NCBI RefSeq assembly: GCF_000372065.1
Contig: NZ_AQVB01000003.1
Span: forward strand, 196 to 64,195
DNA: 64,000 nucleotides
Origin: Oligella urethralis DSM 7531
GTDB taxonomy: Bacteria > Pseudomonadota > Gammaproteobacteria > Burkholderiales > Burkholderiaceae_B
Direction: 5' to 3'
This document shows positions 8,243-63,328 of the stretch, one piece after another. Position 1 is the first letter of the stretch; each line of letters starts with the position of its first letter. The notes under the pieces are model-generated. The model did not search any database. It was not told the DNA's origin and saw only the letters and a program-made list of their open reading frames with translations. Both the position numbers and the translations under genes were made by a program.

Positions 8243-10066
8243 CTAATAAGAAAAATTTAAGCTAAATCCAATCACTACACGCTTCGTTTTAAAGCCTGAC
8301 GGTTTTTTAATCGGTGTACCGACAAAGAAGTCGTAGTACCCTTGCGGGTTGCTATGAGGTGATGAGCCAAAAGTCAGCTGCCCACGTAAACCAATCACTG
8401 CCCCTGCCAAGGTTTGTCCTAGTAAGTAAGATGATGATGGGCCACTTACTCGACCCACGTCGGCGCCCACATAGACTTGATGATTGGGTCGATATTGCCA
8501 AGCCACGTCATTACGCCAATACCAACCGCGCTCAGCCATCAAATACAGCTCTCCATCAAAGCCGCGTACGCTATAACGCCCCCCGATCGCCAATTGATCT
8601 TGAGTAACGAGTGGGCTCTTATGCCACTGCGCATGGACACGACTATCCCAGACTAAACTTTCTTGACCCAAAGTGAATGGCATAGACCAATTCACGTCGG
8701 CGGTTAGCACACGCATGCGTGAGGTGCCTTCACCAAACAAGTGCTCAGCAGGCTGCTCACTATTGAATATGCCCGTGCCTCGACGGTAGGACAAATCAAG
8801 CCCTAAGGTATTGGCTCCTATGAATTCCTTATGAGAAACCGATGCTTGCCACCCGCCCATTTTTTTGCGTTGCACATCAATTTCGGCATCCGCAATGTAA
8901 TTATTTGAACGACGTTGCCATAACTTAAAACTAGCTTGCGTTTTACGTCGTTGATCTCGGTATAAGGTGCGACTCACACCTAATTCACGATTTAAACTGC
9001 GTCCGTTATAGTCATAATGCTCATAAGCGCCAGCCACCGCCTGATGGTATCGATAGTAACTTTGATTATAAAAAAACTGCCAATAACCCCAAGGTATCGA
9101 GTAATGCAAAGAGTAACTGTCAGTTCGCCCTTTAGTTCGATGACCATCGTCATCACGAAGGCTCAACCTATCACCTAGGCTACGGTTATATGACACATAA
9201 AACAAATCACTTAAACCCAAGAGACCATCGCCTGAGAAAGTGGTGGTGCCTATATAACGTCCAGTCTGTCGACTACCCGAATTATCAAAGCCCATACTGA
9301 GTCGAAATGGCACATGACGCTGCTGCCAATCCACATGCACATCACTGTACTGCGCCCTGTCTGCCGCTTCGATCCGTATGGATGTTTGCGCTGTAGGTAG
9401 ACGTCGATAATTTTCTAGGCCTTGCTCAATATCGCGTAAATTAAACACCTCGCCGCGTCGGACTGGCATCTCATTTTGCAGCCATCGCATACGAGCATGT
9501 CCAAACCCTTGCGCACCGTCAGGACTAAGAATAACCTCCCCCACATAACCTGGGATAAGTGTTAGTCTTAGATGCCCCTGACTTAAGTCTTGCGCTTCAA
9601 GCACCACACGACTTGTGGTATAGCCACGATCAATTAAGGCATTTTGCGCATAGACACTTAAGAGCTCAATACCTTGAACGCCAACACATTGCCCCTCTTT
9701 AAACCCTGCGCGAGTTATTGCAGCCTCTAAAGCAAATTGAAAACGACTGGCCTCTTGGCCCTCCAAACTTAAGTTCTTGATCGGAAAGCATGGCGATTCC
9801 TCACCGATCGCTGCCAAGGTACGGAAAGACGGCTCCTCTAACTCAGGACCGACTAAACGCACATCGTCTTGGGATTGACGTGTTGCCTGCTGCAACGCCT
9901 CGCGTTGTTGCTGACGTTGCTCTTCAAATTGAGCCTCATTTGGGGAGGACACAACAGAACCAGATTGCGCCAAAGCGTTCGACATAAAAAAAGCCGACAG
10001 CCCAGCGACTATCGACCCACGTAAGAACAGAGAACTAACGACAACCAACGGATTTTCCTTATTCAC
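8243..10066 (-). CDS. Two-partner secretion outer-membrane transporter, CdiB/FhaC/ShlB family
   Basis: This Omp85-superfamily beta-barrel exports the adjacent CdiA/FhaB-like exoprotein across the outer membrane. It has 607 residues, usual for the family. Residues 1-34 look like a signal peptide ending ALAQ. A Gln/Glu-rich stretch (about 46-65) fits the plug/linker region. POTRA-type sequence spans about 93-175, with Cys93 and Cys127 positioned for a disulfide. The barrel starts around 255. The conserved loop-6 motif VRGFDGE is at 500-506, and the chain ends in an aromatic residue (FSLNFSY), as outer-membrane proteins do. The start codon is GTG (10064-10066) with no clear Shine-Dalgarno sequence; an in-frame stop lies four codons upstream and the next Met (28) would cut the signal peptide. 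Transporter-before-exoprotein matches the E. coli-type cdiBAI order. Confidence 0.95.
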   Translation of the reverse strand: MNKENPLVVVSSLFLRGSIVAGLSAFFMSNALAQSGSVVSSPNEAQFEEQRQQQREALQQATRQSQDDVRLVGPELEEPSFRTLAAIGEESPCFPIKNLSLEGQEASRFQFALEAAITRAGFKEGQCVGVQGIELLSVYAQNALIDRGYTTSRVVLEAQDLSQGHLRLTLIPGYVGEVILSPDGAQGFGHARMRWLQNEMPVRRGEVFNLRDIEQGLENYRRLPTAQTSIRIEAADRAQYSDVHVDWQQRHVPFRLSMGFDNSGSRQTGRYIGTTTFSGDGLLGLSDLFYVSYNRSLGDRLSLRDDDGHRTKGRTDSYSLHYSIPWGYWQFFYNQSYYRYHQAVAGAYEHYDYNGRSLNRELGVSRTLYRDQRRKTQASFKLWQRRSNNYIADAEIDVQRKKMGGWQASVSHKEFIGANTLGLDLSYRRGTGIFNSEQPAEHLFGEGTSRMRVLTADVNWSMPFTLGQESLVWDSRVHAQWHKSPLVTQDQLAIGGRYSVRGFDGELYLMAERGWYWRNDVAWQYRPNHQVYVGADVGRVSGPSSSYLLGQTLAGAVIGLRGQLTFGSSPHSNPQGYYDFFVGTPIKKPSGFKTKRVVIGFSLNFSY

Positions 10067-28383: not shown

Positions 28384-28923
28384 CTACTTGTTATCGTCTT
28401 CGTCCGCCTCATCGTCGTCGAAGTCTTCATCCTCAAAATCATCCTCATCGTCGGCCTCTACCTCGGGCGCTAAATAACCGACAAGATTTGCCATTTCAAT
28501 CGCCACTACCGCACAATCGATACCCTTTTGCGCAGCACGCTCTTGAGCTTGCTCCTCATCTTCCGTGGTCAGAATGCCGTTAGCAATCGGAATACCCGTA
28601 TCTAAAGCCACCCGAGTAATGGCAGCAGCAGATTCATTACTAACCACCTCGAAGTGATAAGTCTCACCACGAATCACTGCACCTAAAGCAATTAAGGCAT
28701 CAAACTCGTCTGTTTGGGCCATCTCATGCAGCGCAAAACCGACTTCTAAGGCACCGGGCACCGTGACGACCATGATATTTTCCTCTTGCACCCCTAAATC
28801 ACCTAGCTCAGCCAAGCACGCTTCTAATTCCATATTGGTAATCGACTCGGTAAATCGAGCGCAAACAATACCAATGTGCAGATCCTCACCATTTAAATCA
28901 GGTGCTATTTTATAAGGTTTCAT
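28384..28923 (-). CDS. ribH: 6,7-dimethyl-8-ribityllumazine synthase with acidic C-terminal tail
   Basis: RibH joins the ribB product with the pyrimidine intermediate to form lumazine, the riboflavin precursor. Residues 13-150 are a typical subunit, with [11 protein letters not shown] (55-65) and the catalytic His90 in GETYHFEVV. The 179-residue product is longer than the usual 150-160. The last 26 residues (154-179) are extremely acidic, 19 of 26 being Asp or Glu, which is not part of the enzyme core. It lies between the ribB-type gene (44 bp) and nusB (11 bp). Confidence 0.95.
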
Positions 28924-38793: not shown

Positions 38794-39618
38794 TTAGCTG
38801 AGCGGAATACCAGCTAGCTTGACCCCAAGTAGCAATAAAACCGGTCCACCATTAAAAATCGCATGTAAATAAATCGCATTAGCAATGCCATAGCGGATAC
38901 GCATCCACATCAGCACGAGCCCAGAAAACCACTGCGGCAATACCATCGCCAACACAGCAACGACACTAATGTGCTCAAACTCATAATTGTAAATATGCAT
39001 ATAGGCAAAGCCAAAGACCAATAAATGCATCAGCCACACAAAAACGTGGCGATACAGCTTTAACACCTTAAAAGGTAAGCGTAGGCGCGCCTCAGCAGAG
39101 GTGAGACCGAGCCTTGGATACAGTTGCATAATAATGGCTAGCACCAAGATTAAGCCTAAGGTGCCAATCACCGTACCCTGCCGCAACAGCACAAAGAACA
39201 TCAGTGGCACCAACCAAATCGCCACGACTGGTCTGCGTGCACTGTAGCGAAAGAGTATTTCCTCCACAATCGGTGCCCAAATCACCGCCAAAGGCACCAT
39301 ACTATAAGAAAATTCTAGCCGATGGGTCGCCCCAGCACCATCCGCTGCGACTAAGGCAATGGGTGCAAGTACTAAAATATTCACCGCCCACATAAAGGCC
39401 GCCCACTGTAATAAGCGCCGCCAAGGCAGATTTAGCTGCCAATCCTTAAACCAGCCGTCACCGCTACCCCGTCCATGACCGCGCCGGAAATCTGGCTTCA
39501 CAATAAAGCGAAAAAAATCACGCATTTGCTCACGGAAACGCTCGGCTTGATGCGGTGCAGGGGGTCTTTTACGCCCCTGCGGTACTTGTGGTTGAGTAAA
39601 TAAGGAATTCTGACTCAT
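38794..39618 (-). CDS. CPBP-family intramembrane protease-like protein
   Basis: The 274-residue product has a basic, Pro/Arg-rich cytoplasmic N-terminus (about 1-65) and then six or more hydrophobic helices. The CPBP signature EEILFR (Glu119-Glu120...Arg124) and a late HAIFNG motif (about residue 256) supply the glutamate, arginine, histidine and asparagine set of intramembrane glutamic proteases. Substrate unknown. It lies 8 bp after pth, so co-expression with pth is likely. Confidence 0.82.
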   Translation of the reverse strand: MSQNSLFTQPQVPQGRKRPPAPHQAERFREQMRDFFRFIVKPDFRRGHGRGSGDGWFKDWQLNLPWRRLLQWAAFMWAVNILVLAPIALVAADGAGATHRLEFSYSMVPLAVIWAPIVEEILFRYSARRPVVAIWLVPLMFFVLLRQGTVIGTLGLILVLAIIMQLYPRLGLTSAEARLRLPFKVLKLYRHVFVWLMHLLVFGFAYMHIYNYEFEHISVVAVLAMVLPQWFSGLVLMWMRIRYGIANAIYLHAIFNGGPVLLLLGVKLAGIPLS

Positions 39619-58143: not shown

Positions 58144-59262
58144 TTATCTGCGACTAAACACAGAGGGTAATAACAACCAACGCGGACAACGCCAGTTCAC
58201 TAAACGCGAGTACAGCCACAAATATAGCACTGAGAACACAAACATAGACAAGCATAGGAACCATGCCTGATCCCAGAAAATCGTGGCGGGTACTAAACCA
58301 ATCAAACACAGTACCCACAAATAAGGTGAGGTTAAGGCATTACATAAGGCCGGTACACTGTCGCGACTATCACGACTGAAGGTCACTCTCACTAAGCGGC
58401 GGAAAATTAATTGATGTAAATGCAAGGCATCCGGCTGATCTACCCGCACTTTACGGATAAAGCGACGACGCCAAATCGAAAACATGGTTTCAAAAACCGG
58501 ATAAAACAGCACCGCAATGGCATAAAAAGGTGATACCGAAGGATTGCGCGCTACTAATTGCACCGCCAACTCAGCCAACATAAAGCCGATAAAATAAGCG
58601 CCACCATCGCCTAAAAACACGCGCCCGAAGGGAAAATTCCACACCAAAAAGCCCATCACCGCAGAAGCCATGGCTAAAGCGATGACAAAAATTGCCGTGT
58701 CATTGACCTGATAGGCTACTAAGGCCAGTGAAATGGCAATTAAGCAAGAGACCATGCCGGCAAGACCATTCATCCCATCAATTAAATTCATGGCATGGGT
58801 ACAGCCACCGACCGCTACCATAGTAAAGAGTAAAGATACCGGCCAAAAACTAAGCACCCAATCAAGCCATTCAAAGCCTACACGGGAGACGCCACCAAAA
58901 AACCACCAGGCAATGGCAGCCGATGCAAAGGCTGCTAATAAACGCTTACCCGCACCGATGTCCTTGGTAATATCCTCTAAAATGCCTGCCACAAACACCG
59001 GCATGGCAGCCACAAATAGCGCTGGCCAAAACCAATTGAGCGTAGTATTGTCCGGCCTCCCTAAAACCAACAAGCCCGCCAAGGTCCCCGCGAACACGGC
59101 TAAGCCACCAATACGCGGCGTGGACCGTACATGCGAGGCCTGTGGCTTATTCAGATCAGAGTCACCAGTAAAGCGCCCATGCCAACGCTCGGAGGCGATA
59201 ATCAAACCGCCCACCGAAAAAGCCACAATACAAATCAAAAGATATTGCCAAGCTTCTGTCAC
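58144..59262 (-). CDS. Undecaprenyl-phosphate N-acetylhexosamine-1-phosphate transferase, WecA/MraY family
   Basis: An integral membrane enzyme of 372 residues with about ten helices that starts a glycan on undecaprenyl phosphate. It carries the PNPT family's Asp-rich and downstream motifs: HVRSTPRIGGLAVFAG (near 43-58), AMNLIDGMNGLAGM, FLVWNFPFGRVFLGDGGAYFIG, and DALHLHQLIFRRL with the HxH set. Donor is probably UDP-GlcNAc or UDP-GalNAc. As the first gene of the cluster it fixes the reducing-end sugar. Confidence 0.9.
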   Translation of the reverse strand: MTEAWQYLLICIVAFSVGGLIIASERWHGRFTGDSDLNKPQASHVRSTPRIGGLAVFAGTLAGLLVLGRPDNTTLNWFWPALFVAAMPVFVAGILEDITKDIGAGKRLLAAFASAAIAWWFFGGVSRVGFEWLDWVLSFWPVSLLFTMVAVGGCTHAMNLIDGMNGLAGMVSCLIAISLALVAYQVNDTAIFVIALAMASAVMGFLVWNFPFGRVFLGDGGAYFIGFMLAELAVQLVARNPSVSPFYAIAVLFYPVFETMFSIWRRRFIRKVRVDQPDALHLHQLIFRRLVRVTFSRDSRDSVPALCNALTSPYLWVLCLIGLVPATIFWDQAWFLCLSMFVFSVLYLWLYSRLVNWRCPRWLLLPSVFSRR

Positions 59263-59520
59263 TACGTTCTACTATAAAAAGAATGAATTAGTTGAAAAAG
59301 GCACTTAAGTAAGTCATTTGCACTGACGCCCACTTAATGCCTCTACCCTGTGTGCTGCAAGTCTAACAGCTGAGGGAGTATTAAGGTATTAAAAGATATT
59401 GTAATTTGCAACAACGATGAATTGTTATTTATTGGACATGTTCAGCCATTGTTGATAAAAACAGACGTTTGGTCAGCCGTCCTTACATCGACTGAGCATT
59501 AGGGCAGCAAATTTTTTGCA
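59263..59520. other. Upstream region of the polysaccharide cluster
   Basis: About 260 bp between the wecA-type start and the candidate sRNA terminator. I see no gene. A weak minus-strand TTGTTG/TAATAC pair at 17 bp spacing could be a promoter. Nothing else is recognisable. Confidence 0.4.
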
Positions 59521-59549
59521 AAAAAAACCCGGAATCAAAAGATTCCGGG
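59521..59549 (-). terminator. Intrinsic terminator of the candidate small RNA
   Basis: Perfect 9-bp stem CCCGGAATC / GATTCCGGG with a 4-nt loop, followed on the minus strand by a run of at least seven T residues. It belongs to no protein gene. Confidence 0.9.
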
Positions 59550-59680
59550 CAAATCCACCAAAGGAGGAGGGTGGAGGAGACATCTGCATAAACTAAAGTC
59601 TGAGTTAGTAAGGAGAAAACTAATCAAACTCCAGTTTAAATCACTGCGAGCTATAGGACAAACCCTAATAACCCGACAAC
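59521..59680 (-). ncRNA. Candidate small RNA with two anti-Shine-Dalgarno hairpin loops
   Basis: The minus strand shows an orphan transcription unit of about 160 nt. A promoter-like pair lies directly upstream. Within it, stem TTAGT/ACTAA (59605-59623) exposes loop TTTCTCCTT, and stem TCCACC/GGTGGA (59554-59575) exposes loop CTCCTCCTTT, which includes the 16S rRNA anti-SD string CCTCCTTT. A strong intrinsic terminator closes it. No conserved-looking ORF is present. The pattern recalls CU-rich-loop sRNAs that pair with ribosome binding sites, such as the cuckoo RNAs of Alphaproteobacteria; I know of no named homologue here. Confidence 0.6.
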
Positions 59681-59686
59681 AATTAA

Positions 59687-59715
59687 ATATTAACAAAGTT
59701 TTTGTTGCGTTGCAA
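59687..59715 (-). promoter_or_regulatory. Candidate promoter of the small RNA
   Basis: On the minus strand TTGCAA (59710-59715) and TAATAT (59687-59692) are separated by exactly 17 bp. Each matches the consensus at 4 of 6 positions. Predicted transcript start near 59680. Confidence 0.45.
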
Positions 59716-59923
59716 GAAAAAACTAATGAAAACCCTAGGTGCACGATGTGATTGTTGTATTTTTGACATTTTTCAAAAAAACTTCAATACACTAACATGC
59801 CCATACACTGTGGCCACTAATTTTTAGCCCTGTTTTAGCCATCAAATAACCCATTAGCGCTACTAAAACGGCATAATGTTAGATACGATTGAATCTTAAG
59901 AATAGCTATAAGGAAATCAGATT

Positions 59924-60346
59924 ATGCAATGCTCTGTCGAATGGAATGGTCCCGAGGGTATGTTATTTGTTTGCCAAACCGGTAGTGGTCATACCTTAAC
60001 CGTGGATGGACCGCCCGAGGGTGGCGGTAATAATCTGGCCCCTCGTCCCATGGAAACCTTGCTAAGCGGCGCTGGTGCCTGCTCAGCTTATGATGTGGTG
60101 ATGATTTTACAACGCAGCCGCAAGGATATTCGCCGTTGTCGTTTAAATATCACCTCGGAACGTGCTGAAACAGACCCCAAGGTATTTACCAAAATTCACT
60201 TCGAATTTATCGTCAGCGGTCGCGACTTACAAGACAAAGTAGTCGAACGCGCCATTAACCTAAGCCATGAAAAGTATTGTTCCGCCGTGGCCATGCTAAA
60301 TAAAACCGCTGAAATTACACATTCCTATCGGATTGAGGAAGTTTAA
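59924..60346 (+). CDS. OsmC/Ohr-family protein
   Basis: 140-residue peroxide-reducing family protein. The two conserved cysteines are present: Cys53 in SGAGACSAYDVVMIL and Cys119 in SHEKYCSAVAML. Most like the YhfA/OsmC branch rather than Ohr. Its stop is 3 bp before thyA, so it heads the osmC-thyA-folA group. Substrate unknown. Confidence 0.92.
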   Translation: MQCSVEWNGPEGMLFVCQTGSGHTLTVDGPPEGGGNNLAPRPMETLLSGAGACSAYDVVMILQRSRKDIRRCRLNITSERAETDPKVFTKIHFEFIVSGRDLQDKVVERAINLSHEKYCSAVAMLNKTAEITHSYRIEEV

Positions 60347-61710: not shown

Positions 61711-61735
61711 TTTTAATTAGGAGGGATGGTTAAAA

Positions 61736-63328
61736 ATGAGCAGATTTTCTTGGCAAATACCTGAGTATTACAATATTGCTGTCGACACGTGTGATAAATG
61801 GGCCGACGGTAGTGGACGATTAGCACTAATAGAAGAAGTTGCTGGTGAGACCAAGCACTACAGTTTTGATCAACTGCGTGATTTTTCTAATCAATTTGCC
61901 AATGCACTTAAAGCGGCTGGCGTAAAAAAAGGCGATCGTGTTGGTATTTTATTAACTCAGGGTTTGGCAACCGGCATTGCTCATTTAGCGACTTATAAGT
62001 TAGGTGCTATTGCCGTTCCGCTATTTGCTTTGTTCGGCTTGGATGCGCTTAGTTTTAGAATCGCTCATGCCGGAATTACTACCCTAATTACCGATCAGGG
62101 CGGCTTAGATAAAATCAATACGATACGTAGTGAAATTCCTTGTTTAAAAAATATTTTTAATATCAATCAAGAGTATAGCGATGAAAAGGCTCTTTCGTTC
62201 TGGTCTGAGCTTAATGCTCAACCACTAACTTTTGAAGTCGCAAATACCCTCGCCGAAGATCCTGCTATCATTATTTTCACTTCAGGCACTACCGGTAAAC
62301 CAAAGGGTGCCTGCCATGCACACAGGGTGTTACTCGGTCATTTACCTGGCGTTGAAACTTCCCACAACAATGAGATGGATAGTGATGATACCATTTTCTG
62401 GACACCCGCAGACTGGGCTTGGATTGGTGGACTATTAGATTTGCTTTTGCCGGCATGGCATCACGGACGCCCTGTAGTTGCCTCTCGCGCCTCTAAATTC
62501 AACGCAGAAGATGCTTTTAGTTTAATGAACAAACATCAAATCACCCATACTTTTTTACCACCAACTGCGCTTAAAATGCTGCGATTTTTAGAAAAACCAC
62601 AGCAAAGGTGGTCACAATTAAAGTTACGTTCAATCGCTAGTGGTGGTGAAACACTCGGGAAAGAACTACTTGACTGGGGCCGAGACAATTTAAATCTCAT
62701 AATCAATGAGTTTTATGGTCAAACCGAGTGCAATATGATTGTTTCTAGTTGTGCGAAAAAGTTTGCCCCTAAGTCCGGCAGTATGGGTAAAGCTGTACCC
62801 GGCCATCATGTTACGATTATCAACTCCGCAGGTGAGCCCGTCGCTGCGGGTGAAGAAGGTGATATTGCTGTCTTAAAACCTGACCCAGTGATGTTCCTCT
62901 ACTATTGGAACGACCCTGAAGCCACTAAGCAAAAATTTAATGGTGAATATCTACTCACCGGCGATCGTGGCGTGATGGATGAAGACTCTTATTTCTTTTT
63001 TATAGGGCGCGATGATGATGTAATTACTAGCGCTGGATACCGTATCGGCCCTGGTCCAATTGAAGACGGACTACTAAGTCACCCTGCTATCAGTATGGCG
63101 GCGGTTATCGGTATCCCGGATCCAGATCGCACAGAGATTGTCACAGCATTTGTTGTACTAAAAGAAGGCTATGTAGCAAGCGAGCAGCTTAAAAAGGATT
63201 TACAGGACCACGTACGTACTCGGGTCGCAGCACACGAATATCCGCGACAAATTCATTTTTTGGATGAACTGCCAATGACGACTACGGGCAAAATCATCCG
63301 TAAAGAATTACGTAATTTAAAAGCATAG
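61736..63328 (+). CDS. AMP-forming acyl-CoA synthetase (acetyl/medium-chain type)
   Basis: An ANL-superfamily ligase of 530 residues. P-loop-like motif IIFTSGTTGKPKGACHAH, adenylate motif EFYGQTECNMIVSS, hinge YLLTGDRGVMDEDSYFFFIGR, and C-terminal catalytic Lys in TTGKIIRKELR. The fold resembles medium-chain and acetyl-CoA synthetases of the MACS type. Substrate is not decidable. A GGAGGG ribosome site lies about 8 nt before the ATG. The IclR gene converges 2 bp after the stop, so an aromatic or organic-acid catabolic role is possible. Confidence 0.9.
   Translation: MSRFSWQIPEYYNIAVDTCDKWADGSGRLALIEEVAGETKHYSFDQLRDFSNQFANALKAAGVKKGDRVGILLTQGLATGIAHLATYKLGAIAVPLFALFGLDALSFRIAHAGITTLITDQGGLDKINTIRSEIPCLKNIFNINQEYSDEKALSFWSELNAQPLTFEVANTLAEDPAIIIFTSGTTGKPKGACHAHRVLLGHLPGVETSHNNEMDSDDTIFWTPADWAWIGGLLDLLLPAWHHGRPVVASRASKFNAEDAFSLMNKHQITHTFLPPTALKMLRFLEKPQQRWSQLKLRSIASGGETLGKELLDWGRDNLNLIINEFYGQTECNMIVSSCAKKFAPKSGSMGKAVPGHHVTIINSAGEPVAAGEEGDIAVLKPDPVMFLYYWNDPEATKQKFNGEYLLTGDRGVMDEDSYFFFIGRDDDVITSAGYRIGPGPIEDGLLSHPAISMAAVIGIPDPDRTEIVTAFVVLKEGYVASEQLKKDLQDHVRTRVAAHEYPRQIHFLDELPMTTTGKIIRKELRNLKA

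Follow-up and report, generated by a model that had tools for sequence, protein, structure and literature searches.

We found that the DNA at 59521-59715 on the minus strand of the window (the whole stretch that was analysed, 64,000 nt of contig NZ_AQVB01000003.1 from Oligella urethralis DSM 7531) holds a real small RNA (sRNA) of a known family, RF02278 in Rfam (Betaproteobacteria toxic sRNA). It is very probably the Oligella orthologue of S17, an sRNA of Bordetella pertussis, and as such would repress mRNAs for nutrient uptake and catabolism by pairing with their extended Shine-Dalgarno (SD) sequences. An earlier note on this DNA, made from the letters alone, had described an orphan for which no family could be named; the sRNA is not an orphan, because it matches RF02278 over the full length of the model with a score of 66.5 bits, the cut-off being 50. 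Computation established the family and locus of the sRNA, its structure, the covariation of its leader, the conserved promoter and a predicted set of targets. The predicted parts of the unit and the genes on either side are:

59710..59715, minus strand: -35 box TTGCAA, by motif; the form TTGCnn-17-TAnnnT is kept in relatives
59687..59692, minus strand: -10 box TAATAT, 17 bp from the -35 box
59703..59714, minus strand: candidate PhaR-operator-like element TGCAACGCAACA, agreeing with TGCRNYGCASMA at 11 of 12 positions and overlapping the -35 box
59521..59680, minus strand: predicted long sRNA of ~160 nt, its start placed 7 nt past the -10 box by analogy with S17
59644..59679, minus strand: leader hairpin 1, with a counterpart in the same position in the predicted folds of five other Oligella sequences
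59589..59638, minus strand: leader hairpin 2, with the Oligella-specific extra seed loop TTTCTCCTT at 59610-59618
59572..59582, minus strand: seed (Site 1), TGTCTCCTCCA, the predicted 5' end of a processed short form if processing follows S17
59554..59575, minus strand: core hairpin, with the anti-SD loop CTCCTCCTTT at 59560-59569 (Site 2)
59520..59550, minus strand: intrinsic terminator, a 10-pair stem and then a T-run
59520..59582, minus strand: RF02278 match, model positions 1-64 of 64
58144..59262, minus strand: glycosyltransferase family 4 gene, a conserved neighbour
59924..60346, plus strand: OsmC-like gene, a conserved divergent neighbour

The layout of the unit was much as the earlier note had read it. 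The TTGCAA and TAATAT boxes (59715-59710 and 59692-59687) are spaced by 17 bp, the strong terminator consists of a 10-pair stem and T residues at 59550-59520, and the two CU loops are exactly placed, with TTTCTCCTT (59618-59610) and CTCCTCCTTT (59569-59560) occupying hairpin-loop positions in the predicted folds. The mean unpaired probability was 0.82 for the TTTCTCCTT loop, with one flanking letter per side included, and 0.99 for the CTCCTCCTTT loop. There is also a third exposed CU stretch, TGTCTCCTCCA at 59582-59572, which had not been listed, and the unpaired UGUCUCCUCCA directly precedes the second CU hairpin. A 155-nt fold of the RNA had an energy of -57 kcal/mol (z -7.3) and the fold of the 62-nt 3' part had a z of -6.4; each was equalled by none of 200 shuffles. 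The unit had further been said to contain no protein gene, which agrees with what we found: an ORF running across the sRNA, of 69 aa with a GTG start upstream of the promoter, has no Pfam match, and a protein-coding reading was dropped. The letters of the anti-SD loop are, we presume, those of the 3' end of the host 16S rRNA; a query with GGATCACCTCCTTT for this end matched in none of eight genus genomes, and the rRNA is probably missing from those assemblies.

The promoter is conserved, with TTGCnn-17-TAnnnT found upstream of 25 of 28 family loci (0.4 in shuffles) and 5 of 7 Oligella loci (0.2 in shuffles). A stock promoter scan left the TTGCAA/TAATAT pair unlisted (8 of 12 matches by hand count, with a threshold of 9), and the region held no excess of promoter-like sites (2 vs 3.5 in shuffles) or of terminator-like sites (3 vs 3.4).

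RF02278 describes a hairpin followed by a terminator hairpin, with a CU-rich linker and loop, in Betaproteobacteria; the sRNA has this architecture and Oligella belongs to the Alcaligenaceae within that group. The covariance search of related genomes that the earlier note had proposed placed RF02278 above its cut-off in 186 of the 200 genomes searched from the family; of the 14 that lack it, eight are 0.7-0.8 Mb genomes from a single genus. Within the genus it was above the cut-off in seven of eight genomes, the eighth being an assembly 84% complete. In a sample of the phylum, 16 of 299 genomes were above the cut-off, all 16 from the window's own order, and 11 more had matches under it with E up to 0.001. 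The note had placed similar designs in other proteobacterial classes; RF02278 is known in the same class, and S17 has been studied in Bordetella. The closest named relative of the OsmC-like protein is that of Oligella ureolytica (91%), and the sRNA region is identical over 320 nt between the O. ureolytica locus and another genus member, G106. All sequence counts given here are raw and ignore kinship.

One copy of RF02278 above the cut-off was found in the window's genome. Four other hits scored at most 16.1 bits, and 13 of 14 control genomes were also hit at the same loose E limit; the idea of further copies was dropped. NmsRb (RF02877) was rejected at 32.1 bits against a cut-off of 52, as were seven more Rfam families matched with E up to 1 and under their own cut-offs: anti-hemB, BSnc119, ncS16, Pseudomon-1, VrrA, SorX and ylbH, the last on the opposite strand. 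Three Pigmentiphaga loci (L055, L070 and L106) carry two tandem sRNA copies upstream of OsmC.

The position of the sRNA also links it to S17, which in B. pertussis is described as lying between a glycosyltransferase gene and coq7 (PMC11722255). The relative L043 carries, in this order, UDP-glucose dehydrogenase, glycosyltransferase, the sRNA, coq7, OsmC, ThyA and DHFR; COQ7 was named there by Pfam and the five other proteins are 50-77% identical to those of the window. The window has the order of L043 minus coq7, and a profile search of its genome with E up to 0.001 found no COQ7. The interval at 59263-59923 has no coq7, which in L043 is present between the sRNA and OsmC. A divergent sRNA was found upstream of OsmC in 51 of 80 OsmC loci by a strict pattern. 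From this matching place between the glycosyltransferase and the coq7/OsmC side, together with family and architecture, the sRNA is therefore most likely the orthologue of S17, as we know S17 from its description.

That the RNA acts in trans by exposing anti-SD letters, as the earlier note had suggested, is well supported, whereas its view that many ribosome binding sites would be blocked at once is too broad. Under such a general brake on translation, the CU loops would imitate the 3' end of the 16S rRNA, so that fewer ribosomes load on most GGAGG leaders and growth is arrested in a toxin-like manner. The family is described as toxic, with clones that harm E. coli, overexpression of its member ncS27 is described as slowing B. 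cenocepacia, and, of 91 copies collected with a pattern that does not constrain the second loop, 60 have CTCCTCCTTT there, all of which is consistent with a brake. However, the conservation of the unpaired seed extends beyond the anti-SD core, with TGTCTCCTCCAC in 35 of 35 loci picked by the Rfam model, although the model itself favours those letters. A separate count in the 91 copies (88 with TGTCTCCTCCAC and 3 with CGTCTCCTCCAC) came from a pattern which presupposes GTCTCCTCCA, so the case for seed conservation is made on the 35 model-picked loci. Because the conserved unpaired seed UGUCUCCUCCA points to GGAGACA-type leaders, and the set of genes behind such leaders is skewed to uptake and catabolism, we consider a general brake quite improbable and the sRNA most likely to repress uptake and catabolic genes by extended SD pairing.

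The seed is complementary to TGGAGGAGACA. We found GGAGACA-N2-9-ATG at 26 places in the window's genome, compared to 16 for the reversed pattern. At 19 of these places an ORF of 100 aa or more begins, preceded by an in-frame stop no more than 90 nt upstream; the other seven were left out for want of a 100-aa ORF. The other seven GGAGMMM classes served as controls, with 85 sister places among the first 100 of 182 GGAGMMM matches listed; among these, 27 of 85 gave such an ORF, compared to 19 of 26 for GGAGACA (P = 0.0002). Transport is represented among the 19 by four DctP (TRAP) binding proteins, a Peripla_BP_6 protein and an MFS transporter. They also include a DUF485 protein, an acyl-CoA-ligase type, two enoyl-CoA hydratases, a short-chain dehydrogenase, a ring-hydroxylating dioxygenase subunit, a catechol dioxygenase, a 3-hydroxyanthranilate dioxygenase, a class III aminotransferase and a gamma-glutamyltranspeptidase. 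Three of the 19 do not fit: a metallo-beta-lactamase-fold protein, ATP sulfurylase and a radical-SAM/BATS protein. The 27 listed controls are mixed, with a tRNA synthetase, NDK, an FtsW/RodA type, an Fe-S protein, type VI secretion, transposase parts and others.

By functional classes which were assigned by hand from Pfam names, unblinded, 16 of the 19 GGAGACA ORFs serve uptake or catabolism, compared to 5 (P = 1e-5) or 7 (P = 2e-4) of the 27 controls among the matches listed, and solute-binding proteins by family name make up 5 of 19 vs 0 of 27 (P = 0.008, among the matches listed). Restricted to the matched part of the genome, the difference in ORF yield was not significant among the matches listed (8 of 15 vs 27 of 85, P = 0.14); function gave 6 of 8 vs 5 of 27 (P = 0.006) or 7 of 27 (P = 0.03), and binding proteins 3 of 8 vs 0 of 27 (P = 0.009), both among the matches listed. 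It should be noted that 34 of the 85 listed sister places open an ORF of at least 100 aa, seven of which had been left out as they have no in-frame stop within 90 nt; four of these were scanned with Pfam and three were not, and they include a DctP and an AMP-binding fragment. With these seven restored, the comparisons among the matches listed were 16 of 19 vs 9 of 34 for function (P = 1e-4) and 5 of 19 vs 1 of 34 for binding proteins (P = 0.02), and in the matched part 6 of 8 vs 9 of 34 (P = 0.016) and 3 of 8 vs 1 of 34 (P = 0.018). Going by their sequences, the GGAGACA leaders of the window's genome thus appear to precede mostly uptake and catabolic genes.

Two relatives gave comparable lists, for which the reversed pattern was the only control. 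In genus member G022, 25 GGAGACA places (11 for the reversed pattern) yielded 18 ORFs, including both CoA-transferase subunits, an acyl-CoA dehydrogenase, an enoyl-CoA hydratase and malate synthase; less in keeping with uptake or catabolism, citrate synthase and a glutathione S-transferase are on the list too, as is an unrelated class-II glutamine amidotransferase. In G106, with 40 places (22 for the reversed pattern), the 30 places whose loci were covered gave 22 ORFs, one of them a duplicate; these include five DctP proteins, a TctC receptor, an aldehyde dehydrogenase, an acyl-CoA dehydrogenase and a 3-hydroxyisobutyrate-dehydrogenase-type gene, and also unrelated genes such as PhoH and part of MurJ. 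The targets described for S17 are transporters, a fatty acid ligase and mmsB, which was tested with a reporter (PMC11722255) and is of the same type as the 3-hydroxyisobutyrate-dehydrogenase-type gene. The predicted lists from the relatives are in agreement with these targets and with what has been predicted for the Burkholderia RNAs. Next to DHFR lies an AMP-ligase gene whose leader is GGAGACA in G106 (L224) and GGAGGGA in the window (61720-61738). Within the literature searched, the Oligella target list appears to be new.

S17 is described as a 190-nt transcript which is bound by Hfq, is cut by RNase E to 67 nt and represses mRNAs through unpaired sites, the short form having a conserved 5' part of 27 nt (PMC11722255). 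For the window's organism, whose genome contains an hfq gene, we infer transcription, Hfq binding, cleavage and repression along the same lines. A sigma-70 promoter would give an RNA of ~160 nt; Hfq would bind it and RNase E would cut before the core, leaving a stable form of ~62 nt. The seed UGUCUCCUCCA and the loop CUCCUCCUUU would then pair with extended SD sequences, of the GGAGACA and GGAGGAG types, in selected mRNAs and block the initiation of translation. These mRNAs would mainly encode the transporters of secondary carbon sources and the enzymes that break them down, and the outcome would be a shutdown of nutrient uptake and breakdown.

The leader contains a further hairpin, leader hairpin 2, which covaries and whose loop repeats the seed in six of the seven sRNA-bearing Oligella genomes, the repeat being degenerate in the window. 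Stems of the leader were paired inward from their outer ends by script. Over the 12 bp of the stem in six Oligella sequences, 71 of 72 cells are paired and 5 pairs are changed on both sides, in line with the earlier note's expectation that stems would be preserved by compensatory changes. Pairing of as many cells was reached by 5 of 10000 shuffles, and slid partners gave 34, 21 and 15 of 72; the double changes were reached by 684 of 10000 shuffles, and there was no excess of pair types (7929 of 10000). The loop is TGTCTCCTCA or TGTCTCCTTA (TGTCTCCTYA) in five of the sequences and TTTTCTCCTTA in the window, and in five of the six it matches the seed over eight or nine letters. Outside Oligella, GTCTCCT occurs in 1 of 83 leaders compared to 0.66 expected by chance. 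Leader hairpin 2 is absent from G022. It is, as far as these sequences indicate, a local addition in which the seed is repeated in a loop, and this loop, the first one singled out by the earlier note (TTTCTCCTT in the window), is an Oligella speciality. The leader seed loop seems to be new within the literature searched.

Leader hairpin 2 could be a second working part, a separable anti-SD hairpin which is freed by cleavage so that each transcript yields two regulators. The pairing that so few shuffles equal and the seed repeat, near chance frequency elsewhere, speak for this, but it is an unlikely reading, as the stem is known from only six sequences of one genus, shuffles often reach its pair types and sometimes its double changes, and the hairpin is absent in G022 and degenerate in the window. 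The departures of the window's copy, namely its leader loop TTTTCTCCTTA where the other five have TGTCTCCTYA and a PhaR-like element at 11 of 12 positions, might instead suggest that the copy in this species has decayed or fallen silent. We give this very little credence: the seed, core stem and loop are identical to those of five other Oligella sequences, the promoter and terminator are present, and every one of the 12 pairs counted in the leader stem is formed there.

The -35 box of the sRNA overlaps an element resembling the operator of PhaR, for which TGCRNYGCASMA has been derived in Bradyrhizobium from footprints and promoter comparison; the sites described there include some ending GCAACA (PMC6201568). 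The core TTGCnnnGCA was found upstream of the sRNA in 4 of 7 Oligella sequences (0.04 expected), 27 of 29 family sequences (0.28 expected) and 38 of 54 other OsmC-locus copies (0.7 expected); the Herbaspirillum locus L079 is one that has it. It was at the -35 position, 16-18 bp before TAnnnT, in 4 Oligella, 27 family and 37 other copies, and the middle was RNY in 59 of 66 distinct upstream regions with TTGCnnnGCA. The strict TGCRNYGCASMA, an alphaproteobacterial consensus, was present in 23 of 29 family and 33 of 54 other copies (0.04 in shuffles for each) and was weaker in Oligella, with 1 of 7 and TGCAACGCAACA of the window differing at one of the twelve letters. A relaxed PhaR-like pattern has three more matches in the window, at 28727-28738 (plus strand), 39548-39559 (minus strand) and 8863-8874 (minus strand).

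PhaR is described as being sequestered by PHB and, in Sinorhizobium, as repressing the sRNA mmgR, and the authors of S17 speculate that its promoter is held down by an unnamed repressor (PMC11722255). The element hints that stored PHB might control the sRNA. A possible, still tentative, extension is that many Burkholderiales have a carbon-storage switch whose output is the S17/RF02278 RNA of the OsmC locus. PhaR would sit on the -35 box until a build-up of PHB releases it, whereupon the RNA would be made and carbon uptake and breakdown would be shut off; PhaR would be the repressor postulated for S17, and Oligella would have gained a third seed loop while its operator was drifting. By pattern, TTGCnnnGCA is absent in 16 of the 54 OsmC-locus copies, including three Cupriavidus, one Ralstonia and three Burkholderia loci (L071, L076, L077, L073, L087, L090 and L109). 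The element-free Cupriavidus loci count against a role for PhaR, because PhaR control of PHB genes is described in Cupriavidus necator. An open-access search found no literature linking PhaR to RF02278, the main texts of PMC11722255 and PMC5688073 mention neither PhaR nor PHB, and a PhaR-type element on the promoter of this sRNA seems to be new within the literature searched.

With these results an apparent orphan becomes a member of a family with a predicted target set, and a widespread but poorly understood anti-SD sRNA gains a candidate signal. For the repressor imagined by the authors of S17, the conserved PhaR-type operator at the -35 box offers a concrete candidate that can be tested, and PhaR control, if true, would tie carbon storage to the global control of nutrient uptake.

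Compared to known systems (further sources PMC5688073, PMC4603805, PMC12542648, PMC5362039, PMC9049629 and PMC11332829), the Oligella sRNA is closest to S17, with which it shares the locus order, a TTGCA-type -35 box with 17-bp spacing, a predicted long form with a leader, a short core with Sites 1 and 2 and similar predicted targets; it differs in that the window has no coq7 between the sRNA and OsmC. Leaders vary from genus to genus, and that of Oligella is unlike those of the other genera inspected. The sRNA resembles the double-hairpin RF02278 RNAs of Burkholderia (ncS03, ncS05, ncS27 and ncS62) in its two hairpins, CU-rich linker and loop, and terminator. However, the window's genome has one above-cut-off copy compared to three to five in Burkholderia, and its sRNA has a long leader with an extra seed loop. 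Anti-SD motifs are also shared with the sibling sRNAs of Neisseria (NmsR and NgncR_162-163), which repress metabolic genes, although the Oligella sRNA scores under the cut-off of the NmsRb family (RF02877). Finally, it resembles MmgR, the PhaR-repressed sRNA of Sinorhizobium, in having a PhaR site at its promoter, which in Oligella is a predicted one.
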